NCBI RefSeq assembly: GCF_030269125.1
Contig: NZ_BSSM01000006.1
Location: 124,001 to 188,000, forward strand
Length of the DNA: 64,000 bases
Direction: 5' to 3'
Origin: Streptomyces hygroscopicus subsp. hygroscopicus
GTDB taxonomy: Bacteria > Actinomycetota > Actinomycetes > Streptomycetales > Streptomycetaceae
Shown here: positions 3,225 through 32,208 of the stretch, in pieces
Position numbering within the stretch: position 1 is the first letter of the stretch
Layout of the letters: each line of letters starts with the position of its first letter
The notes under the pieces: model-generated
Told to the model about the DNA's origin: nothing
Databases searched by the model: none
What the model saw: the letters and a program-made list of their open reading frames with translations, nothing else
Program-made: the position numbers and the translations under genes

Positions 3225-3599
3225 TCAGGCCCAGAAGGACTGGGCGAGGGCCGTGCCCAGGAACGCGGCGCCGAGGCCCGCGACGACGCTCGCGACGACG
3301 TTGGCGGCGGCGAGGAGGCGCGCGCCGTCCTCGGCGAGGCGCAGGGTCTCGTAGGAGAACGTGGAGTAGGTGCTCAGCGCCCCGCACAGCCCGGTGCCGA
3401 TCAGCAGCTGGAGGTCCGAGGACATCCCGCCGGCGAGGACCGCCCCGGTGACCAGGCCGAGGACGAGGCTGCCGACGACGTTGACGGTGAAGGTGCCCCA
3501 GGGGAAGACGGTGTCGTGCCGCGACTGCACGGTGCGGTCGGTCAGATAGCGCAGCGGTGCGCCGACGACGGCTCCGGCGATGACCAGCAGCCAGTTCAC
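3225..3599 (-). CDS. crcB: Fluoride channel CrcB/FluC, first subunit
   Basis: A 124-residue membrane protein with four predicted hydrophobic helices, the normal size for one Fluc subunit. It exports fluoride passively across the cytoplasmic membrane. Conserved features are the PLRY start of the first loop, the GTFTVNVVGS helix and the GALSTYSTFSYE motif whose Ser/Thr/Phe residues line the fluoride path. The GTG start at 3599 overlaps the stop codon of the preceding small gene (GTGA), so it is translationally coupled. Two crcB genes in one operon are usual in actinobacteria, where the two subunits form an antiparallel heterodimer. Confidence 0.93.
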   Translation of the reverse strand: MNWLLVIAGAVVGAPLRYLTDRTVQSRHDTVFPWGTFTVNVVGSLVLGLVTGAVLAGGMSSDLQLLIGTGLCGALSTYSTFSYETLRLAEDGARLLAAANVVASVVAGLGAAFLGTALAQSFWA

Positions 3600-3823
3600 G
3601 GACTCTCCTTCACGTCATGGCCGTGGCGGCGCACGATCTCGCGGGGGTCGACGGTCCCCAGGGCCTCGCCGCGGGACAGGCCGGTGCCGGCCGGCCCGGC
3701 CCGGTGGGCCCGGTGCGCGATCCCGGCGAGGAGGGGCTCGTGGTGCCGCATGCCGTTCTCGCCGGCCGGGACCGCGAGGCGCGGGGCGGCGAGTTGTGCG
3801 GCGGGGACGGCCGGTGTCGTCAC
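3596..3823 (-). CDS. Shortened DUF190-like protein between the two crcB genes
   Basis: A 75-residue reading frame on the minus strand, joined to its neighbours by GTGA overlaps on both sides and preceded by a good GGAGGG site. Residues 15-45 ([20 protein letters not shown], then [16 protein letters not shown]) resemble the first half of DUF190 proteins, PII-like partners usually found between crcB genes. The usual middle of the family is absent, and the sequence jumps to a tail ([10 protein letters not shown]) resembling the DUF190 C-terminal strand. It therefore looks like an in-frame internal deletion: either a degenerating gene or a retained coupling element. The family match is from memory of the motif and needs a profile search. 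Confidence 0.6.
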
Positions 3824-4287
3824 GACGCCCTCCACCCGATGACGCGCCGGGTGAGGTGCGCGGTGGTCCACACGGCCGCGAGGGCGCCGAGCGCGGTCGC
3901 GGCGAGGTCCAGCAGGCCGGTGGCTGCCCGGCCGTTGTCGGTCAGGCGCTCGATGTCCACGGTGTAGGCGGAGAAGGTGGTGAACCCGCCGAGGAACCCG
4001 GTGCCGAGGAAGGGTCTGACCAGGCGGTGGCCGGCCCGGACGTCGGTGGTGACGACCATGAGGACGCCGATGACGGCGCAGCCGGTGACGTTCACCCAGA
4101 ACGTGGTCCACGGGAAGGCACCGGACGCGGTCGGCCACAGCAGCGCGGCGCCGTAGCGGGCGCAGGACCCGAGGGCGCCGCCCGCGGCCACGGCCGTGAA
4201 GACCGGCCACCGCGCGGGGCCTGCACCGGGCAGGGGCCGTTCCATGCCGGTTCCGGTGGATTCGTTCAGCGTGGTCCGCTCCGCCAC
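3820..4287 (-). CDS. crcB: Fluoride channel CrcB/FluC, second subunit
   Basis: A 155-residue membrane protein with a 30-residue hydrophilic N-terminal extension and four hydrophobic helices. Family motifs are present: [21 protein letters not shown] and the [12 protein letters not shown] segment with the pore-lining residues. It is expected to pair with the CrcB subunit encoded two genes downstream to expel fluoride. The GTG at 4287 is chosen because GAGGAGG lies five bases upstream; an ATG just before it is out of frame. This is the first gene of the coupled crcB-DUF190-crcB operon. I looked for a fluoride riboswitch upstream and did not recognise one. Confidence 0.92.
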
Positions 4288-4939: not shown

Positions 4940-5803
4940 ATGCGCTTCTCCGTGAACGTACCCAACTTCGGCGACTTCGCGGACCCCCGCGCCGTCGCGA
5001 CCGTGGCGGTCGCCGCCGAGCAGGCGGGCTGGGACGGCCTGTTCGTCTGGGATCACGTGCTGCACCGGCGCCACCAGGGGCGTCCCTTCGCCGATCCCTG
5101 GATGCTGCTGACGGCGGCCGCGCTGGCGACCTCCCGCATCCGCCTGGGCACCCTGCTGACACCGGTGCCGCGGTACCGTCCGCAGCAACTGGCCCGCCAG
5201 GTGGCCACGCTGGACCGGCTCAGCGGCGGCCGGGCGGTCTTCGCGGCGGGCCTGGGCGGCCCGGTCGAGGACGAGTACCGCAGCTTCGGCGACACCGCCG
5301 GGCCGCGGGAGCTGGCCGAGCGGCTGGACGAGGGGCTGGAGCTGCTGGCCCGCTTCTGGTCCGGCGAGCCGGTGGACCACCACGGCCCCCACTACACGGC
5401 CCGGGACGTCACCCTGCTGCCCGCCACCGCGCAGCGGCCCCGCCCGCCGGTGTGGATCGGCGGGTTCTGGCCGCGCCGCGCGCCCATGCGCCGCGCGGCG
5501 CGCTGGGACGGCGCCGTGCCGCTCTTCGAGACCGCCCGTCACGGGCAGGTGCCGGAGGTGGCGCAGGTGCGCGAACTGATCGCCCATGTCCGGGCGCACC
5601 GTACGACCGACGTTGGACGCCCCTTCGAGTTCGTCCTCGGCGGCGCCACCCCGGCGGACCCCGCGAGGGCCGGGGACGTGATCGGCCCGCTGCGCGACGC
5701 CGGTGCCACCTGGTGGGACGAGCGGCAGCTCCAGGGCGGCCCCGACCTGGACCGGCTGGGGCCGGTGCTGCGGCGCGTGGAAGCGGGCCCGCCGGTGCTC
5801 TGA
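4940..5803 (+). CDS. LLM-class flavin-dependent oxidoreductase
   Basis: A 287-residue bacterial-luciferase-like monooxygenase, expected to be a TIM barrel using reduced FMN or F420. The start FSVNVPNFGDFADPRAV, the WDGLFVWDH segment and IRLGTLLTPVPRYRP are typical of the family. The substrate is unknown. The ATG at 4940 opens directly on the first beta strand; no strong ribosome site is seen. The gene follows the dehydrogenase debris and precedes an unusually AT-rich promoter region belonging to the ArsR-SulP operon. Confidence 0.88.
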   Translation: MRFSVNVPNFGDFADPRAVATVAVAAEQAGWDGLFVWDHVLHRRHQGRPFADPWMLLTAAALATSRIRLGTLLTPVPRYRPQQLARQVATLDRLSGGRAVFAAGLGGPVEDEYRSFGDTAGPRELAERLDEGLELLARFWSGEPVDHHGPHYTARDVTLLPATAQRPRPPVWIGGFWPRRAPMRRAARWDGAVPLFETARHGQVPEVAQVRELIAHVRAHRTTDVGRPFEFVLGGATPADPARAGDVIGPLRDAGATWWDERQLQGGPDLDRLGPVLRRVEAGPPVL

Positions 5804-5867
5804 CGGGGTCGGCCACCTCTCGACACACCAGACATGAGCGGGCAAAGTGTGACAAATCAGATATAGG

Positions 5868-5887
5868 AATTGCTAAAGTTTGCAATT
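5868..5887. promoter_or_regulatory. Palindrome in AT-rich promoter of the ArsR-SulP operon
   Basis: AATTGC and GCAATT form a perfect inverted repeat with an 8-base spacer inside an AT-rich island (about 5850-5895), 50 bases before the ArsR start. The island contrasts strongly with the surrounding GC-rich DNA. By analogy with other ArsR-family genes this is a plausible autoregulatory operator overlapping the promoter. No binding evidence is available. Confidence 0.5.
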
Positions 5888-5936
5888 GGTTAGATGCTTT
5901 GTTCGTCGTATTCGCAGAGAGAGAAGTCGAGGGATC

Positions 5937-6278
5937 GTGTCGGTTCCGCTGTACCAGGCGAAGGCCGAGTTCTTCCGGATGCTCGGTCACCCCGTACGGA
6001 TACGGGTGCTCGAGCTGTTGCAGGACGGGCCCACGCCGGTCCGGGACCTGCTCGCCGCCATCGAGGTGGAGCCGTCCAGCCTCTCCCAGCAGCTGGCGGT
6101 GCTGCGCCGCTCGGGGATCGTCACCTCCACCCGCGAGGGCTCGACGGTGGTCTACCAGCTGGCCGGCGGTGACGTGGCCGACCTGATGCGGGCCGCGCGC
6201 CGGATCCTCACGGAGATGCTCACCGGGCAGCACGAACTGCTCACCGAACTGCGGGAAGCCGAGGTCTCCGCCCGATGA
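5937..6278 (+). CDS. ArsR-family winged-helix regulator
   Basis: A 113-residue ArsR/SmtB-type repressor. The winged helix covers nearly the whole protein: LGHPVRIRVLELL, the recognition helix PSSLSQQLAVLRRSG, and the wing TREGSTVVYQL. No CxC metal site is present, so it probably senses something other than arsenic or a thiophilic metal. The GTG at 5937 is used because a GAGGGA site lies upstream and the conserved PLYQAKAEFFRMLGHP segment follows at once. Its stop overlaps the SulP start (ATGA), so it is probably the co-transcribed regulator of the transporter. It is clearly paralogous to the ArsR gene at 9445. Confidence 0.92.
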   Translation: MSVPLYQAKAEFFRMLGHPVRIRVLELLQDGPTPVRDLLAAIEVEPSSLSQQLAVLRRSGIVTSTREGSTVVYQLAGGDVADLMRAARRILTEMLTGQHELLTELREAEVSAR

Positions 6279-8017
6279 GCACCGCTCTCGCCCGGGGCGT
6301 ACGGACCGTACGCACCCGGATCACCTCCCTGCTGCCCGGCCGCTCCGACCTCGTCGCGGTACGGCGCGACCCGCGCCGGGACCTGCTCGCGGGCCTCACC
6401 GTCGCCATCGTCGCGCTCCCCCTCGCCCTCGGCTTCGGCGTCTCCTCGGGGCTCGGCGCCGAGGCGGGCCTGGCCACCGCGGTGATCGCCGGTGCGGTCG
6501 CGGCGGTGTTCGGCGGCTCGAACCTCCAGGTGTCGGGGCCGACCGGCGCGATGACCGTCGTCCTCGTGCCGATCGTCGGCCGGTACGGGCCCACCGGTGT
6601 GCTCACCGTCGGCCTGATGGCCGGTGTCCTGCTGATCGTGCTGGCCGCGCTGCGCGCCGGGAAGTACATGCAGTACGTGCCCGCGCCGGTGGTGGAGGGC
6701 TTCACTCTCGGCATCGCCTGTGTGATCGGGCTCCAGCAGGTGCCGAACGCGCTCGGTGTGCCCGCGCCCAAGGGCGACAAGGTGCTGGTGGTGACCTGGC
6801 GGGCGTTCGAGGAGTTCGCGAAGGCGCCGAACTGGACCGCCGTCGGGCTCGCGCTCGCCGTGGCCGCGGTGATGCTGCTCGGCGCGCGGTGGCGGCCCAC
6901 GGTCCCCTTCTCCATCCTCGCCGTGATCGCGGCGACCGTCGTCGCCCAGCTCGCCCGTCTCACCGCGGCCAAGCCGATCGGTGAGCTGCCGTCCGGTCTG
7001 CCCGCGCCCTCCCTCTCCTTCCTCCACGCCGGCTCGCTCGGCTCCCTGGTGGCGCCCGCCGTGGCCGTCGCCGCGCTGGCCGCCCTGGAATCCCTGCTGT
7101 CGGCGTCGGTCGCCGACGGCATGACCGTCGGACAGCGGCACGACCCGGACCGCGAGCTGTTCGGCCAGGGCCTGGCCAACATCGCCGCCCCGTTGTTCGG
7201 CGGCGTCCCGGCCACCGGCGCGATCGCGCGCACGGCGGTCAACGTACGCACCGGAGCCGGTTCCCGGACCGCCGCGTTCACCCACGCCGTGGTCCTCGCG
7301 GTGATCGTCTTCGCCGCCGCCCCCCTGGTCGCGAAGATCCCGCTGGCCGCGCTCGCGGGCGTCCTGCTGGCCACCGCGGTCCGCATGGTCGAGGTCGGCT
7401 CGCTGAAGGCCATGGCCCGAGCCACCCGGTCGGACGCCGCGATACTCGTCCTCACCGCGGTGTGCACCCTCGCCCTGGACCTCGTCTACGCCGTGATCAT
7501 CGGCCTGGCCGTGGCCGGCGCCCTCGCGCTGCGTGCCGTGGCCCGGCAGGCGCGCCTGGACCGGGTGCCGCTGGACCGGGGCGACCACAGCGCGGAGGAG
7601 CACGCGCTGCTCGCCGAGCACATCGTGGCCTACCGGCTGGACGGTCCGCTGTTCTTCGCCGGTGCCCACCGCTTCCTGCTGGAGCTGACCGAGGTCGCCG
7701 ACGTCCGCGTGGTGATCCTGCGCATGTCGCGGGTGTCGACCATCGACGCCACCGGCGCCCTGGTGCTCAAGGACGCGGTGGAGAAGCTGCGCCGGCGCGG
7801 CATCGTCGTCCTCGCCTCCGGTATTCGGCCCGGACAGCGGCGCGTCCTCGACTCGGTCGGCGCGCTGGAACTGCTGCGGCCGGACGGCCAGGACTACGCC
7901 ACCACCCCCGAGGCGATCCAGGCGGCCCGCGGCCATCTCGAGGGCGTCGTGCCGGCGCACCCGGCCCAGCGGACCACCTCGACGCCCTCGACACCCACCG
8001 AGGAAGTCGTCCGATGA
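6275..8017 (+). CDS. SulP-family inorganic anion transporter with STAS domain
   Basis: A 580-residue SulP/SLC26 carrier. It has an N-terminal transport domain of many hydrophobic helices (about residues 35-425), with signature segments SNLQVSGPTGAMTVVLVPIV and LFGGVPATGAIARTAVNVR. A cytoplasmic STAS domain follows at about 445-560, containing the DATGALVLKDAVEKL helix. The substrate could be sulfate, bicarbonate or another anion; no carbonic anhydrase is fused or adjacent. It overlaps the ArsR gene by four bases, and its stop overlaps the start of a 16-codon ORF. Together with the following ATPase and lone STAS genes it forms what looks like a single operon. Confidence 0.93.
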   Translation: MSTALARGVRTVRTRITSLLPGRSDLVAVRRDPRRDLLAGLTVAIVALPLALGFGVSSGLGAEAGLATAVIAGAVAAVFGGSNLQVSGPTGAMTVVLVPIVGRYGPTGVLTVGLMAGVLLIVLAALRAGKYMQYVPAPVVEGFTLGIACVIGLQQVPNALGVPAPKGDKVLVVTWRAFEEFAKAPNWTAVGLALAVAAVMLLGARWRPTVPFSILAVIAATVVAQLARLTAAKPIGELPSGLPAPSLSFLHAGSLGSLVAPAVAVAALAALESLLSASVADGMTVGQRHDPDRELFGQGLANIAAPLFGGVPATGAIARTAVNVRTGAGSRTAAFTHAVVLAVIVFAAAPLVAKIPLAALAGVLLATAVRMVEVGSLKAMARATRSDAAILVLTAVCTLALDLVYAVIIGLAVAGALALRAVARQARLDRVPLDRGDHSAEEHALLAEHIVAYRLDGPLFFAGAHRFLLELTEVADVRVVILRMSRVSTIDATGALVLKDAVEKLRRRGIVVLASGIRPGQRRVLDSVGALELLRPDGQDYATTPEAIQAARGHLEGVVPAHPAQRTTSTPSTPTEEVVR

Positions 8018-8064
8018 GCGAGACGACCACGACGGGGCACCGCCCCGGCCCGACGGAGCGATGA
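8014..8064 (+). CDS. 16-codon mini-ORF bridging SulP and the ATPase gene
   Basis: An ATG overlapping the SulP stop opens a 16-codon frame (MSETTTTGHRPGPTER) whose TGA overlaps the start of the next gene. The overlaps on both sides suggest it carries ribosomes from SulP to the ATPase gene rather than encoding a functional peptide. It could equally be the relic of a longer gene. Ribosome profiling would be needed to show translation. Confidence 0.4.
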   Translation: MSETTTTGHRPGPTER

Positions 8065-8483
8065 TGTCCCAGGCCCTGCAGACCCTCCCCCACCGCCATG
8101 TGCTCACCCTGCCCACCGTCCCGAAGGCGGTGCGCGTCGCCCGGGAGACCGCCGAACAGACCTTCGTGGAATGGGGCATCGGGCTGCGCCACCACGTCGT
8201 GGACCCGGCGCTGCTGATCCTCAGCGAGCTGGTCACCAACAGCGTCCGGCACGCGGCCGAGGTCTCCCCCGAGGTCACCGTGATCTACGCGGCCGCCCAC
8301 GACTGCTTCGCCTTCGCCGTGCACGACCGCCACCCCTACCAGCCCCACCTGCGCACCGCGCCCACCGGACCGGGGGGCCTCGCCACCGTGATGGAGCTGG
8401 TCCTCGGCCTCGGCGGCACCGCGGTGGTCCGCGCGGACGCCGACGGCGAGGGCAAGAGCATCTGGATCACGCTGCCCCTGTAG
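8064..8483 (+). CDS. RsbW-like histidine-kinase-type ATPase (anti-sigma family)
   Basis: A 139-residue stand-alone GHKL ATPase. The N-box ILSELVTNSVRHA lies near residues 53-65 and a lid-like TGPGGLATVMELV segment near 105-117; no histidine phospho-acceptor domain is present. Proteins of this shape act as anti-sigma factors or STAS-protein kinases in partner-switching systems and are very numerous in Streptomyces. Of two adjacent ATGs (8061 and 8064), 8064 is better spaced from the GGAG at 8055. It lies between a SulP transporter with a STAS domain and a lone STAS protein, which suggests a local signalling set. Confidence 0.88.
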   Translation: MSQALQTLPHRHVLTLPTVPKAVRVARETAEQTFVEWGIGLRHHVVDPALLILSELVTNSVRHAAEVSPEVTVIYAAAHDCFAFAVHDRHPYQPHLRTAPTGPGGLATVMELVLGLGGTAVVRADADGEGKSIWITLPL

Positions 8484-8558
8484 GAACCGCGCGGAACCGC
8501 CGGTCCATCGCGCCTCCCCCTCCTCCCCCGCACCCCCGCACAAGGAAGTTGCCGCCGC

Positions 8559-8963
8559 ATGACCATCGACTGGCGCTACACCATCGAGCAGGATCTCGGC
8601 ATCCTCTCCGTCGCCGGCTACCTGGGCCCGGACGCCGTACGCCGCTTCAACGGCGCCATCGGCTGGGTCGTCGCGCGCGGCACCGGACCGGTCGTCCTCG
8701 ACCTGACCGAGCTGCGCAACTGGTCCGCGGAGGGCCAGGTGGCCATCACCGAGGCCGCCCGCCTGCTCGCCGCCTCCGGGCGATGCCTGGAGCTGGCCGC
8801 CATACCCGCCGACGGCTCCCTGGTCCCGGCCGGCGACTGCCCGGACATCCCGGTCCACTGCGACCTGGCCGCCGCGCTCGCCGCCCACGGCCGGGGCCCG
8901 TCCACGCCGGACGACGAACGCCAGGAGTGGCGCACCGACGGCTGGCCCGACCCCGCCTCCTGA
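8559..8963 (+). CDS. Lone STAS-domain protein (anti-sigma-factor antagonist type)
   Basis: A 134-residue protein whose first 105 residues look like a STAS fold: ILSVAGYLGPDAVRRF, then GPVVLDLTELRNWSAEGQVAI as the central strand and helix. The usual phosphorylatable Ser/Thr position lies in WSAEG. The last 25 residues are a disordered acidic tail. It follows the RsbW-like ATPase by 75 bases on the same strand, the usual pairing in partner-switching modules, where the unphosphorylated STAS protein sequesters the kinase. An AAGGAAG site precedes the ATG. Confidence 0.8.
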   Translation: MTIDWRYTIEQDLGILSVAGYLGPDAVRRFNGAIGWVVARGTGPVVLDLTELRNWSAEGQVAITEAARLLAASGRCLELAAIPADGSLVPAGDCPDIPVHCDLAAALAAHGRGPSTPDDERQEWRTDGWPDPAS

Positions 8964-9029
8964 CCCGCGTACCCGCGCCCGTCCCGGCCTGCGTACGATC
9001 CCTTTCGACCCACCTCCGGAAAGAGTTCC

Positions 9030-9377
9030 ATGAGCGACAACCTCCCCGCCTGCCCCGCCTGCTCGGGCACGTTCACCTACGAGATGGGCGCGCTGCTCGT
9101 CTGCCCCGAGTGCGGCCACGAGTGGTCGGCGTCCTCGGACGCGGCCGCCGAGGAGGGCCGGGTCGTCCGGGACGCGGTCGGCAACGTGCTCGCCGACGGC
9201 GACACCGTGACCGTGGTCAAGGCGCTCAAGGTGAAGGGCAGCCCGTCCGGCATCAAGGCGGGCACCAAGGTCCGCAACATCCGCCTCGTGGACGGCGTGG
9301 ACGGCCATGACATCGACTGCAGGATCGACGGCTTCGGCGCCATGCAGCTGAAGTCCGCTGTGGTCAAGAAGGCCTGA
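9030..9377 (+). CDS. PhnA/YjdM zinc-ribbon protein
   Basis: A 115-residue member of the PhnA (YjdM) family. The N-terminal zinc ribbon has CPAC at residues 8-11 and CPEC near 28-31; the C-terminal beta domain carries the family signature DGDTVTVVKALKVKG and IKAGTKVRNIRLVDG. The old link to alkylphosphonate use is not supported by any phn genes here, and the function is uncertain. The ATG at 9030 follows a GGAAAGAG site. It lies in the block between the two ArsR paralogues. Confidence 0.93.
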   Translation: MSDNLPACPACSGTFTYEMGALLVCPECGHEWSASSDAAAEEGRVVRDAVGNVLADGDTVTVVKALKVKGSPSGIKAGTKVRNIRLVDGVDGHDIDCRIDGFGAMQLKSAVVKKA

Positions 9378-9444
9378 ACCGGCCGCTTCGCGTGGGTGCG
9401 AGGACGGGGCGCGTGTTCCTGACCGGTACAAAGGGGTGTGTGCG

Positions 9445-9795
9445 GTGAGTACGCCGCTGTATCGGCTGAAGGCCGAGTTCTTCAAGACGCTCGGGCATCC
9501 GGCGCGCATCCGCGTGCTGGAGCTGCTCGGCGAACGTGAGTACGCGGTCGCGGAGATGCTGCCCGAGGTGGGTATCGAGCCCGCCCACCTCTCCCAGCAG
9601 TTGGCCGTGCTGCGCCGCGCCAACCTGGTCAGGACCCGCAAGGAGGGCTCGACCGTCCATTACTCCCTGACCAGCCCCCACGTGGCCGAACTGCTGCGGG
9701 TGGCGCGGACGATCCTGTCCGGTGTCCTCGCGGGCCAGGCGGAGCTGCTCGCCGATCTGCGCGCGGGCCGGCCGGAGGCCGGGCCGGAGGCGTAG
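9445..9795 (+). CDS. ArsR-family winged-helix regulator, paralogue
   Basis: A 116-residue repressor closely similar to the product of 5937-6278 over its whole length: PLYRLKAEFFKTLGHPARIR, HLSQQLAVLRRANLV, and a wing TRKEGSTVHYSL. No metal-binding cysteine pair is seen. The GTG at 9445 is preferred over 9436 because AAGGGG lies eight bases upstream and because it aligns with the start of the paralogue. The similarity suggests the two genes arose by duplication and may share a ligand or cross-regulate. No target gene follows it directly; the next 580 bases are non-coding. Confidence 0.9.
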   Translation: MSTPLYRLKAEFFKTLGHPARIRVLELLGEREYAVAEMLPEVGIEPAHLSQQLAVLRRANLVRTRKEGSTVHYSLTSPHVAELLRVARTILSGVLAGQAELLADLRAGRPEAGPEA

Positions 9796-10378
9796 GTCGG
9801 CCTGTTCCCGGTCTGCTTCTGTCGACGGAACCCCGTCCGGCGGCAGGAGCCGCCGAGGCCGGACGACACGCCCGGAAAGCCGCGTGACTCCGGCCACTCC
9901 CCCGCCTGTTGGTCCGGCGAAGACCCTCACCAGCAACTGGGAGAGGTTCATGGGCCCCCTGGGCAAGATCCGGACCGCCGGGCGGATCGCCGGGACGGAC
10001 CCACCCCGCCCCACACAACCACGCGAGAGGACGGGGTGGTTGGGCGGTTCCTCGACCACGGCGCGGCGAGCGGCGGCGATGTGCCGGCCCGCTGCCTGGT
10101 GCGGGCGGCGGGGACCGGCCCCTCCTCGCGGCGATCGGGCGGTGCGCGGACGTCCTCGCCGGGCTGGTCACCGTGCTGGGCACGCCGCCGGTTCCGGCGA
10201 CGGGGCCCGGCAGCGGAGGGACCGGCGGAGGGCCGACGGCACCGTCGCGACCCGGGTCGAACTCGCCTGCGACGGCGGCTGAGCCGGGTCAAGCCGGTCT
10301 ACCCGTCCTTCTCCACCGCGCTGCCGGACGCGTCGGCCGACACGATCGTGCCGGACCTCCCGCCGGCCGACCGGAGCC
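9796..10378. other. Long gap without a supportable gene
   Basis: This 583-base gap separates the second ArsR gene from the convergent SLOG-like gene. All frames are open for some distance because of the GC content, but none has convincing family motifs, a good ribosome site or balanced composition. The stretch near 10290-10410 (PVYPSFSTALPDASADTIVP in one frame) has a protein-like composition and may be the tail of a decayed gene. I could not identify it. Confidence 0.5.
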
Positions 10379-10921
10379 TCAATCCGTCGTACGCGGGGAA
10401 CGGCCTGTGAGACCGCAGGTGCCCAGCGCCCCGACGGGCGGGTCGGTCCGGTGCTCGGCGCCGTGCGGCCACAGCACTTCGACGTCCACGCCGTGGCTGC
10501 GGGCGTAGGCCACCAAATGGGCGGTCGCGTCACGGCCGTTGGACGGTGAGCCGTCCCAGACGGCCAGCAGCCGGCCGCAGGAGCGGACCAGGGCCTCGTC
10601 GGCGGTGATGCAGGAGGCGCGGTCGCCGGGGTCGTACTCGACCAGGCGCACCATCTGCGACAGCAACAGCAGTTCGCCGGCCGCCTTGCGGTCGGGCTCG
10701 GCGACGTACGCGGGCACGCCCCTGAGGGACGGCAGCACCGTCACCAGGGCCAGCCCCGCCTTGCGCGCGGCGCGTCCGAACGCCACGGGCAGGCCCTTGC
10801 CGGCCCGGACCAGCCCCGCGCGCCCGGTGCGGGCACGGTCGGCCAGCCGGGTGCGCAGCTCCTCCTCCAGGAGGGCCAGCGTCGGCACGGTGAGATCCGG
10901 ATGTCCGACGACGGCGATCAC
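10379..10921 (-). CDS. SLOG/Rossmann-like hypothetical protein
   Basis: A 180-residue soluble protein. It begins with a beta strand and loop (MIAVVGHPDLT), has AGKGLPVAFGRAARKAG near 60-75, and ends with LLAVWDGSPSNGRDATAHLV. This arrangement resembles SLOG/DprA-like nucleotide-binding Rossmann proteins, which sense or process nucleotide-derived ligands. The exact function is unknown; relatives occur widely in Streptomyces as hypothetical proteins. The GTG or ATG-type start at 10921 is kept because the first strand begins there. A striking T-tracted hairpin lies 70-95 bases upstream in its leader, suggesting attenuation. Confidence 0.75.
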   Translation of the reverse strand: MIAVVGHPDLTVPTLALLEEELRTRLADRARTGRAGLVRAGKGLPVAFGRAARKAGLALVTVLPSLRGVPAYVAEPDRKAAGELLLLSQMVRLVEYDPGDRASCITADEALVRSCGRLLAVWDGSPSNGRDATAHLVAYARSHGVDVEVLWPHGAEHRTDPPVGALGTCGLTGRSPRTTD

Positions 10922-31429: not shown

Positions 31430-32208
31430 TGTGCCGCCACCTCGCCTATCTGGGACCGCGGTCCCCGCTGGAGCGGCTGCTGACGAAGCCCCCGCACAGT
31501 CTGCTCCGGCAGTCGTGGGCGCCGCGGCGGCAGCGGTACGGCACGGTCAACGCCGACGGGTTCGGGGTGGGCTGGTACGCCCCCGGGGACCCGGTGCCCG
31601 CCCGCTACCGCCGGGCCGGGCCGATCTGGGCGGACCTGTCCTTCGCCGACCTGGCCCGGGTCGTGCGCTCCGGCGCGGTGCTCGCCGCCGTCCGGGACGC
31701 GACCCTCGCGGGCGCGGACGCGGAGGCCGCGGCGGCCCCGTTCGCCTCGGGGAGCTGGCTGTTCAGCCACAACGGGGTGGTCGCGGGCTGGCCGGACGCG
31801 GCGGCGCCCCTGGTGGCCACGCTGCCCCCGGTCGACCTGCTCTCGCTGCCCGCGCGCAATGACTCGGCGTTCGTCTGGGCCCTGGTCCTGCACCGGCTGC
31901 GCGCGGGCCAGGACCCGGACCGGGCCCTGGCCGAGACGGTGCGCGAGGTCGCGCGGGCCGCACCCGCCTCCCGGCTGAACCTGCTGCTGACGGACGGCAC
32001 CGCCATCGCCGCCACCGCCTGGGGCGACAGCCTCTGGTACCGCACGGAGCCCGGCCGGGGCACGGTCGTCGCCTCCGAGCCGTACGACGACGACCCGCTG
32101 TGGCGGGAGGTCCCCGACCGCACCGTGCTCACCGCGGACAGCACCGGTGTGCTGCTCGCCCCGGCGGCGGAGCCTGCCGCCGTACCCCCTAAGGAGCCCT
32201 GCACGTGA
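31429..32208 (+). CDS. egtC: Gamma-glutamyl amidohydrolase EgtC
   Basis: A 259-residue class II glutamine-amidotransferase-type hydrolase that removes the gamma-glutamyl group from the sulfoxide intermediate. After removal of Met, Cys2 becomes the catalytic N-terminal nucleophile (MCRHLAYLG). Other conserved parts are NADGFGVGWY, WLFSHNGVVAG and ARNDSAFVWALVL. The ATG shares one base with the egtB stop (TGATG), showing coupling; its own stop overlaps the egtD start. Confidence 0.96.
   Translation: MCRHLAYLGPRSPLERLLTKPPHSLLRQSWAPRRQRYGTVNADGFGVGWYAPGDPVPARYRRAGPIWADLSFADLARVVRSGAVLAAVRDATLAGADAEAAAAPFASGSWLFSHNGVVAGWPDAAAPLVATLPPVDLLSLPARNDSAFVWALVLHRLRAGQDPDRALAETVREVARAAPASRLNLLLTDGTAIAATAWGDSLWYRTEPGRGTVVASEPYDDDPLWREVPDRTVLTADSTGVLLAPAAEPAAVPPKEPCT

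Follow-up and report, generated by a model that had tools for sequence, protein, structure and literature searches.

The DNA analysed here, a window of 64 kb (the whole stretch, to whose numbering all positions refer), is part of the 8.5-Mb genome of a Streptomyces strain, S. hygroscopicus subsp. hygroscopicus. At 5937–9795 it holds a compact cluster, all on the plus strand, in the order ArsR1, SulP, mini-ORF (a 16-codon open reading frame, ORF), ATPase, STAS, PhnA and ArsR2 (Table 1). These genes and their order had been described in an earlier note made from the letters of the DNA, and were confirmed by our reading, translation and domain searches. The coordinates also bear out the overlaps that the note saw linking the first four members. 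ArsR1 and SulP share an ATGA at 6275–6278, SulP and the 16-codon ORF share another at 8014–8017, and the stop of that ORF overlaps the start region of the ATPase gene at 8061–8064. In the window, the mini-ORF is the sole bridge between SulP and the ATPase.

Pfam and NCBIfam searches revealed no sigma factor or phosphatase gene among the genes at 5937–9795. Consensus promoter and terminator scans of 5700–10000 found neither, although such scans suit Streptomyces promoters poorly. A search of Creative Commons-licensed PMC papers by title and abstract returned no paper on a SulP–ATPase–STAS–ArsR cluster.

Table 1. Features of the cluster, in window coordinates.
Feature	Position	Strand	Evidence or remark
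Palindrome AATTGC-N8-GCAATT	5868..5887	none	probable operator of ArsR1 and perhaps of ArsR2; ArsR1 begins 50 bases downstream
ArsR1, winged-helix repressor of Rv0081 type, no Cys	5937..6278	+	HTH_5 E 4.5e-11
SulP anion carrier, C-terminal STAS, Thr493 in D-A-T-G loop	6275..8017	+	PF00916 E 1.2e-72, PF01740 E 2.1e-14
16-codon ORF in PPOX slot, probably a stub	8014..8064	+	overlaps both neighbours
RsbW/SpoIIAB-fold ATPase	8061..8483	+	HATPase_c E 2.3e-06, 28.5 bits (cut-off 26.4)
Free STAS-like protein, loop W-S-A-E-G	8559..8963	+	STAS_2 E 3e-4, below cut-off
PhnA/YjdM zinc-ribbon protein	9030..9377	+	TIGR00686 above cut-off
ArsR2, closer of the two ArsRs to Rv0081, no Cys	9445..9795	+	6jmi E 3.9e-34

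The ArsR regulators, the palindrome and the SulP carrier

The two regulators are indeed paralogous, as had been proposed: a gap-free alignment of ArsR1 with ArsR2 has 61 identities in 113 positions. Among PDB sequences, the best match of both is the hypoxia regulator Rv0081 of Mycobacterium tuberculosis (6jmi). ArsR1 matches it with an E value of 4.4e-26 (49 of 106 aligned residues identical) and ArsR2 with the value in Table 1 (63 of 108 identical), and for each protein the next match follows at 3.4e-12. Neither protein contains a cysteine, so neither has a cysteine metal site; this check covered cysteine only. Elsewhere, the same genome holds another ArsR2-like gene, with 90% identity to ArsR2 (contig C16:192870-193202, locus L157). 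A few kb from it lie genes that we named by eye as a PPOX protein with a helix-turn-helix, a CBS-domain protein and a universal stress protein.

Upstream of ArsR1, positions 5868–5887 read AATTGCTAAAGTTTGCAATT, a perfect palindrome. Its pattern TTGC-N8-GCAA occurs at this one place in the window, and TTGCNAANNTNNGCAA matches exactly once in the whole genome, at the same site. To place the site among relatives, we used a set of 77 related loci (76 from Streptomyces and one from Yinghuangia), collected by scanning named genomes with the ATPase. The ATPase is present in this set by construction, and gene counts are lower bounds since some contigs stop inside the locus. Of 37 relatives running in the same direction, 36 have the TTGC-N8-GCAA pattern in the 200 bp ahead of ArsR1, against an expectation of 0.017 per 200 bp; among seven additional ArsR1-like genes on the opposite strand, one is preceded by it. 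Within the same distance upstream of ArsR2 it is found in 22 of 70 relatives. The ArsR2 sites are of a slightly different make, TTGCTAAT-N3-AGCAATT-like, with 24 listed at a limit of 250 bp. No such pattern precedes ArsR2 in the window. The window palindrome is a hybrid, with a left half (TTGCTAA) resembling the ArsR2 sites and a right half (TTTGCAA) resembling the ArsR1 sites. It is the probable operator of ArsR1, and perhaps also of ArsR2. A genome-wide operator regulon was considered and dropped, as one-mismatch matches (8 forward, 12 reverse) did not exceed those of a reversed-pattern control (9 and 11). Because the exact pattern occurs only here and the one-mismatch matches are at control level, control by this site appears to be local.

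The SulP protein consists of a Sulfate_transp domain (residues 35–394) followed by a STAS domain (residues 448–534). Its best solved relative is 6ki1, labelled in the results table as a low affinity sulfate transporter (E 4.9e-53), and it does not reach the NCBIfam thresholds for DauA, BicA and sulP. Two observations among the 77 loci touch on the anion. A β-carbonic anhydrase gene (PF00484) follows ArsR2 in six loci, all of them without SulP (for example L066:10706-11488); it raises the thought that bicarbonate could be the anion of SulP. In 14 loci, STAS and ArsR2 flank a gene of the 2-phosphosulfolactate-phosphatase family (PF04029) that runs on the opposite strand (for example L042:8890-9681), a hint toward sulfonate chemistry.

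We also surveyed 396 genomes across the phylum, with cut-offs of E ≤ 1e-120 for SulP and E ≤ 1e-25 for the ATPase profile. SulP relatives were found in 21 genomes of 13 genera; the ATPase profile matched in five of the 396, all within its own genus. There are 18 SulP loci outside the genus. In nine of them the gene just upstream, on the same strand, is ArsR-like; in one such a gene lies approximately 1.1 kb upstream, in one it is adjacent but divergent, and in seven the 1.5-kb flanks show none. ArsR is the steady partner of SulP. Because the ArsR–SulP pair is seen outside the genus and the ATPase profile is not, the pair looks older than the link to the ATPase, and from these distributions ArsR and SulP look like the older core of the locus.

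We therefore favour, with moderate confidence, the reading that this is an Rv0081-type, ArsR-autoregulated operon for a SulP anion carrier, in which the ATPase would act elsewhere or solely through binding. An ArsR dimer would sit on the palindrome and repress ArsR1, SulP and the ATPase. As no terminator-like site and no second palindrome turned up in the cluster, repression would probably extend to STAS, PhnA and ArsR2. ArsR may then be released when oxygen or redox conditions change, as it would be in the Rv0080–Rv0088 hypoxia locus, and SulP would move an anion.

Conservation of the grouping

The frequency of the grouping was counted in 199 Streptomyces genomes, with cut-offs of E ≤ 1e-100 for SulP, E ≤ 1e-30 for the ATPase and E ≤ 1e-8 for STAS. 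SulP was matched in 63 genomes, the ATPase in 48 and STAS in 41. The neighbour count used 50 ATPase places (48 genomes), 71 of 73 SulP rows and 44 of 49 STAS rows. It excluded five STAS rows that were weak or partial, one of which (in G148) sits just behind an ATPase, and, for SulP, the second pieces of two split matches. With SulP counted as upstream when it lies on the same strand within 2.5 kb of the ATPase, 39 of the 50 ATPase places have it there and 30 have STAS downstream; the order is thus conserved in other Streptomyces. SulP upstream and STAS downstream were both present at 28 places, SulP only at 11, STAS only at two and neither at nine. Each gene also occurs without the others: 20 of the 50 ATPase places have no STAS, 14 of the 44 STAS places no ATPase, and 27 of the 71 SulP places neither. 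Among the SulP places, the ATPase and STAS co-occur with an odds ratio of 13.7, uncorrected for descent (28 with both, 11 with the ATPase, 5 with STAS, 27 with neither).

The 77 related loci show the same core with a changing periphery: ArsR2 is present in 70, SulP in 63, ArsR1 in 42, PhnA in 35, PPOX in 31 and STAS in 29. PhnA/YjdM varies in position and elsewhere often stands upstream of ArsR1. The PPOX gene, of the pyridoxamine-phosphate-oxidase-like family PF12900 (its L041 copy matches at E 8e-11), takes the slot of the mini-ORF between SulP and the ATPase. The two closest relatives of the window, L033 and L034, keep an open stub of 17 codons in this slot, with slight sequence conservation. 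In L052, compared with the intact L053, the start of PPOX is fused to its end at a shared GCGGAGGC. We rejected the mini-ORF as a gene of its own because it fills the PPOX slot and L052 displays such a start-to-end join; it is probably a stub. The window stub would descend from PPOX, with no sequence similarity left, and it may have been kept open by its role as the bridge between two overlaps. Of the 28 loci without a PPOX match, 15 show SulP overlapping the ATPase by a few bases and another 10 have 0–130 bases between the two genes, an arrangement compatible with co-translation.

The cluster might instead be a mere inherited neighbourhood in an accessory region of the chromosome, whose genes share no job. 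The patchy spread across the 199 genomes and the gain, loss and movement of PPOX, STAS and PhnA among loci speak for this. However, order and overlaps persist down to 56–80% ATPase identity and after the loss of PPOX, and the operator is kept before nearly every same-direction ArsR1. The ratio of non-synonymous to synonymous substitution rates (dN/dS) is well below 1, at 0.25–0.33 for the ATPase (five pairs) and 0.24–0.38 for STAS (four pairs), as expected under purifying selection. An ArsR2 row for L034 in that analysis was a mis-hit, the contig terminating within the ATPase, and was disregarded. The grouping is real and beyond chance, and we consider a shared neighbourhood without shared function improbable.

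The flanks of the cluster were inspected as well. The domain search placed a luciferase-like monooxygenase gene upstream. On the minus strand at 3225–4287, two adjacent small membrane proteins resemble, by eye, a CrcB/Fluc fluoride-exporter pair. Past the cluster, also on the minus strand, a protein of 180 residues (10379–10921) has no Pfam match; L033 and L054 carry clear counterparts of it next to the locus.

The ATPase and the free STAS-like protein

The earlier note took the ATPase for an RsbW-like kinase, and the RsbW/SpoIIAB fold is well supported. The structural model has a mean predicted local distance difference test (pLDDT) score of 90.9, and ranks 1–18 of the PDB fold comparison are chains of RsbW, SpoIIAB, UsfX and Rv1364c. 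Besides the HATPase_c match, a second profile, HATPase_c_2, gives 25.7 bits against a cut-off of 27.4. The sequence alone found no PDB match at E 0.1, and its profile found Rv1364c at E 0.011 plus two weaker rows. All 98 rows share Glu56 and Asn60 of the N-box, and also Asp89. An R-H-P stands where the usual G1 box carries glycines; R90 is present in 95 of the 98 rows.

For the second partner, the free STAS protein, the gene is present as the note described, but its STAS identity comes from a weak profile match: STAS_2 gives 21.3 bits (cut-off 29.2) and Pfam STAS 14.7 bits (cut-off 22.6). No NCBIfam model matches it. The fold model failed (mean pLDDT 42.6) and was not used, and the profile returned a single, unrelated PDB row (desuccinylase/aspartoacylase, E 0.034). 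We aligned 58 rows, with 53 distinct sequences among the 57 relatives. Residue 58, which presumably corresponds to Ser58 of SpoIIAA, is Glu in 46 rows, Gly in 10, Asp in one and Thr in one; it is never Ser. W55, S56 and G59 are invariant in 58 of 58. S56 occupies the place usually held by Asp, one turn before residue 58, and may serve as an alternative phosphosite.

The prevalence of Glu58 raises the idea of a fixed phospho-mimic. Glu58 would replace the phosphoserine and hold or block the ATPase, as a one-way clamp instead of a switch. Our first count of an adjacent ATPase (44 of 45 Glu58 loci against 5 of 10 Gly loci) was biased, as L033–L109 had been fetched with the ATPase; in loci fetched with STAS, the ATPase is adjacent in 17 of 18 Glu58 loci against 4 of 9 Gly loci. 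PMC8256260 reports that phosphorylated BtrV binds BtrW in Bordetella, and it also describes the canonical phospho-STAS as departing from its kinase, which tells against such a clamp. Moreover, the count comes from related sequences uncorrected for descent, Gly stands beside an ATPase in five loci, and the fold itself is unconfirmed. A clamp of this kind is therefore an unlikely explanation.

It had further been proposed that the ATPase phosphorylates both the STAS domain of SulP, at what would be Thr493, and the free STAS protein, so that transport is switched by partner exchange. The adjacency of SulP and ATPase at most ATPase places, the RsbW fold with its invariant N-box Glu and Asn, the coding overlaps in 15 of the 28 loci lacking PPOX and the invariance of Thr493 in 55 of 55 aligned SulPs would all suit this proposal. 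However, Thr493 is also present in 20 of 20 Streptomyces SulPs fetched as lacking intact neighbours. Nineteen of these have no ATPase match (L129 holds an ATPase fragment), and 19 read D-A-T-G, with D-T-T-A in L146. It is likewise found in 18 of 18 SulPs outside the genus, where the ATPase profile matched nothing. Being equally constant with the ATPase and without it (19 of 19 in Streptomyces), Thr493 was rejected as a kinase mark and lends no support to phosphorylation by the ATPase. The free STAS never carries Ser at its site, the ATPase lacks the usual G1 glycines, and the cluster includes neither phosphatase nor sigma gene. The claim that either STAS domain is phosphorylated is thus unsupported, and we regard the switch as very unlikely. 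Adjacency of RsbW-, STAS- and SulP-type genes need not imply partner switching. Equally doubtful is a carrier-borne version, in which the ATPase would phosphorylate or clamp the SulP STAS at Thr493, the free STAS with its Glu58 would compete for the ATPase as a constant phospho-mimic and the two ArsRs would share the hybrid operator; if true, a single oxygen or redox signal would govern how much of an anion carrier is present as well as how active it is.

Returning to the ArsR-autoregulated SulP operon, the ATPase and STAS would have joined later; in our surveys they occur almost exclusively in Streptomyces. The ATPase would most likely be an RsbW-like binder of a sigma factor or antagonist encoded elsewhere. 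The STAS protein, with Glu at the phosphosite, would most likely, if active, serve as a fixed binding partner that does not switch, and not as a substrate.

Relation to the Rv0080–Rv0088 hypoxia locus and other known systems

The M. tuberculosis Rv0080–Rv0088 locus comprises a PPOX-like Rv0080, the ArsR-type Rv0081 and a predicted formate hydrogenlyase operon. In 15 of the 77 related loci, an Oxidored_q6 gene lies beside ArsR2, mostly followed by Proton_antipo_M and NADHdh genes; together with ArsR and PPOX, such an operon is reminiscent of the mycobacterial locus. PMC6177252 places Rv0081 in the DosR regulon, reports its self-repression through an inverted repeat in the Rv0081 promoter, and describes it as without a defined metal site. 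The title of reference 33 in the same paper presents Rv0081–Rv0088 as a predicted formate hydrogenlyase. In PMC13284343, Rv0080 is described as a predicted relative, binding flavin adenine dinucleotide, of the flavin-sequestering protein Fsq.

Several points weigh against a low-oxygen SulP operon at this site. The window has no PPOX, complex-I-like or formate-hydrogenlyase-like genes, and the best matches in its own genome to complex-I-like genes are 30–34% identical. PMC5069765, on the S. coelicolor hypoxia regulon of OsdR, makes no mention of ArsR, SulP or Rv0081. The hypoxia signal itself would be carried over from homology. Furthermore, the association of ATPase and STAS is above chance, and a view of these two genes as pure passengers leaves it unexplained. 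Separately, a palindrome resembling a DevR/OsdR box, GGGACCGCGGTCCC, is found at 31452–31465, far from the locus; it is the sole such match in the window.

The most useful outcome is the reassignment of the cluster as an operon of an Rv0081-type ArsR whose predicted operator has been mapped. The regulation of bacterial SulP carriers is poorly known, and the tie of a Streptomyces SulP to an Rv0081-type regulator suggests a role in low-oxygen or redox adaptation. The related loci also provide a clean natural set on the function of a STAS protein lacking a phosphorylatable serine.

Compared with Rsb/SpoIIA modules, the cluster shares the ATPase fold with its N-box and a STAS-like gene downstream. 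It differs in having a STAS without the phosphorylatable Ser, in lacking a sigma or PP2C gene and in including a membrane carrier; its gene order is also the reverse of the usual antagonist–kinase order. The SulP/SLC26 carriers Rv1739c, DauA and BicA have the same architecture of Sulfate_transp and C-terminal STAS with a D-x-T loop, but the window SulP is set apart by its position behind an Rv0081-type ArsR and by its NCBIfam scores. With Rv0080–Rv0088, the locus has in common the Rv0081-type ArsR and the inverted repeat before the regulator and, in its relatives, also PPOX and complex-I-like genes. To these the window adds SulP, the ATPase, STAS and PhnA, and it has two ArsRs instead of one.

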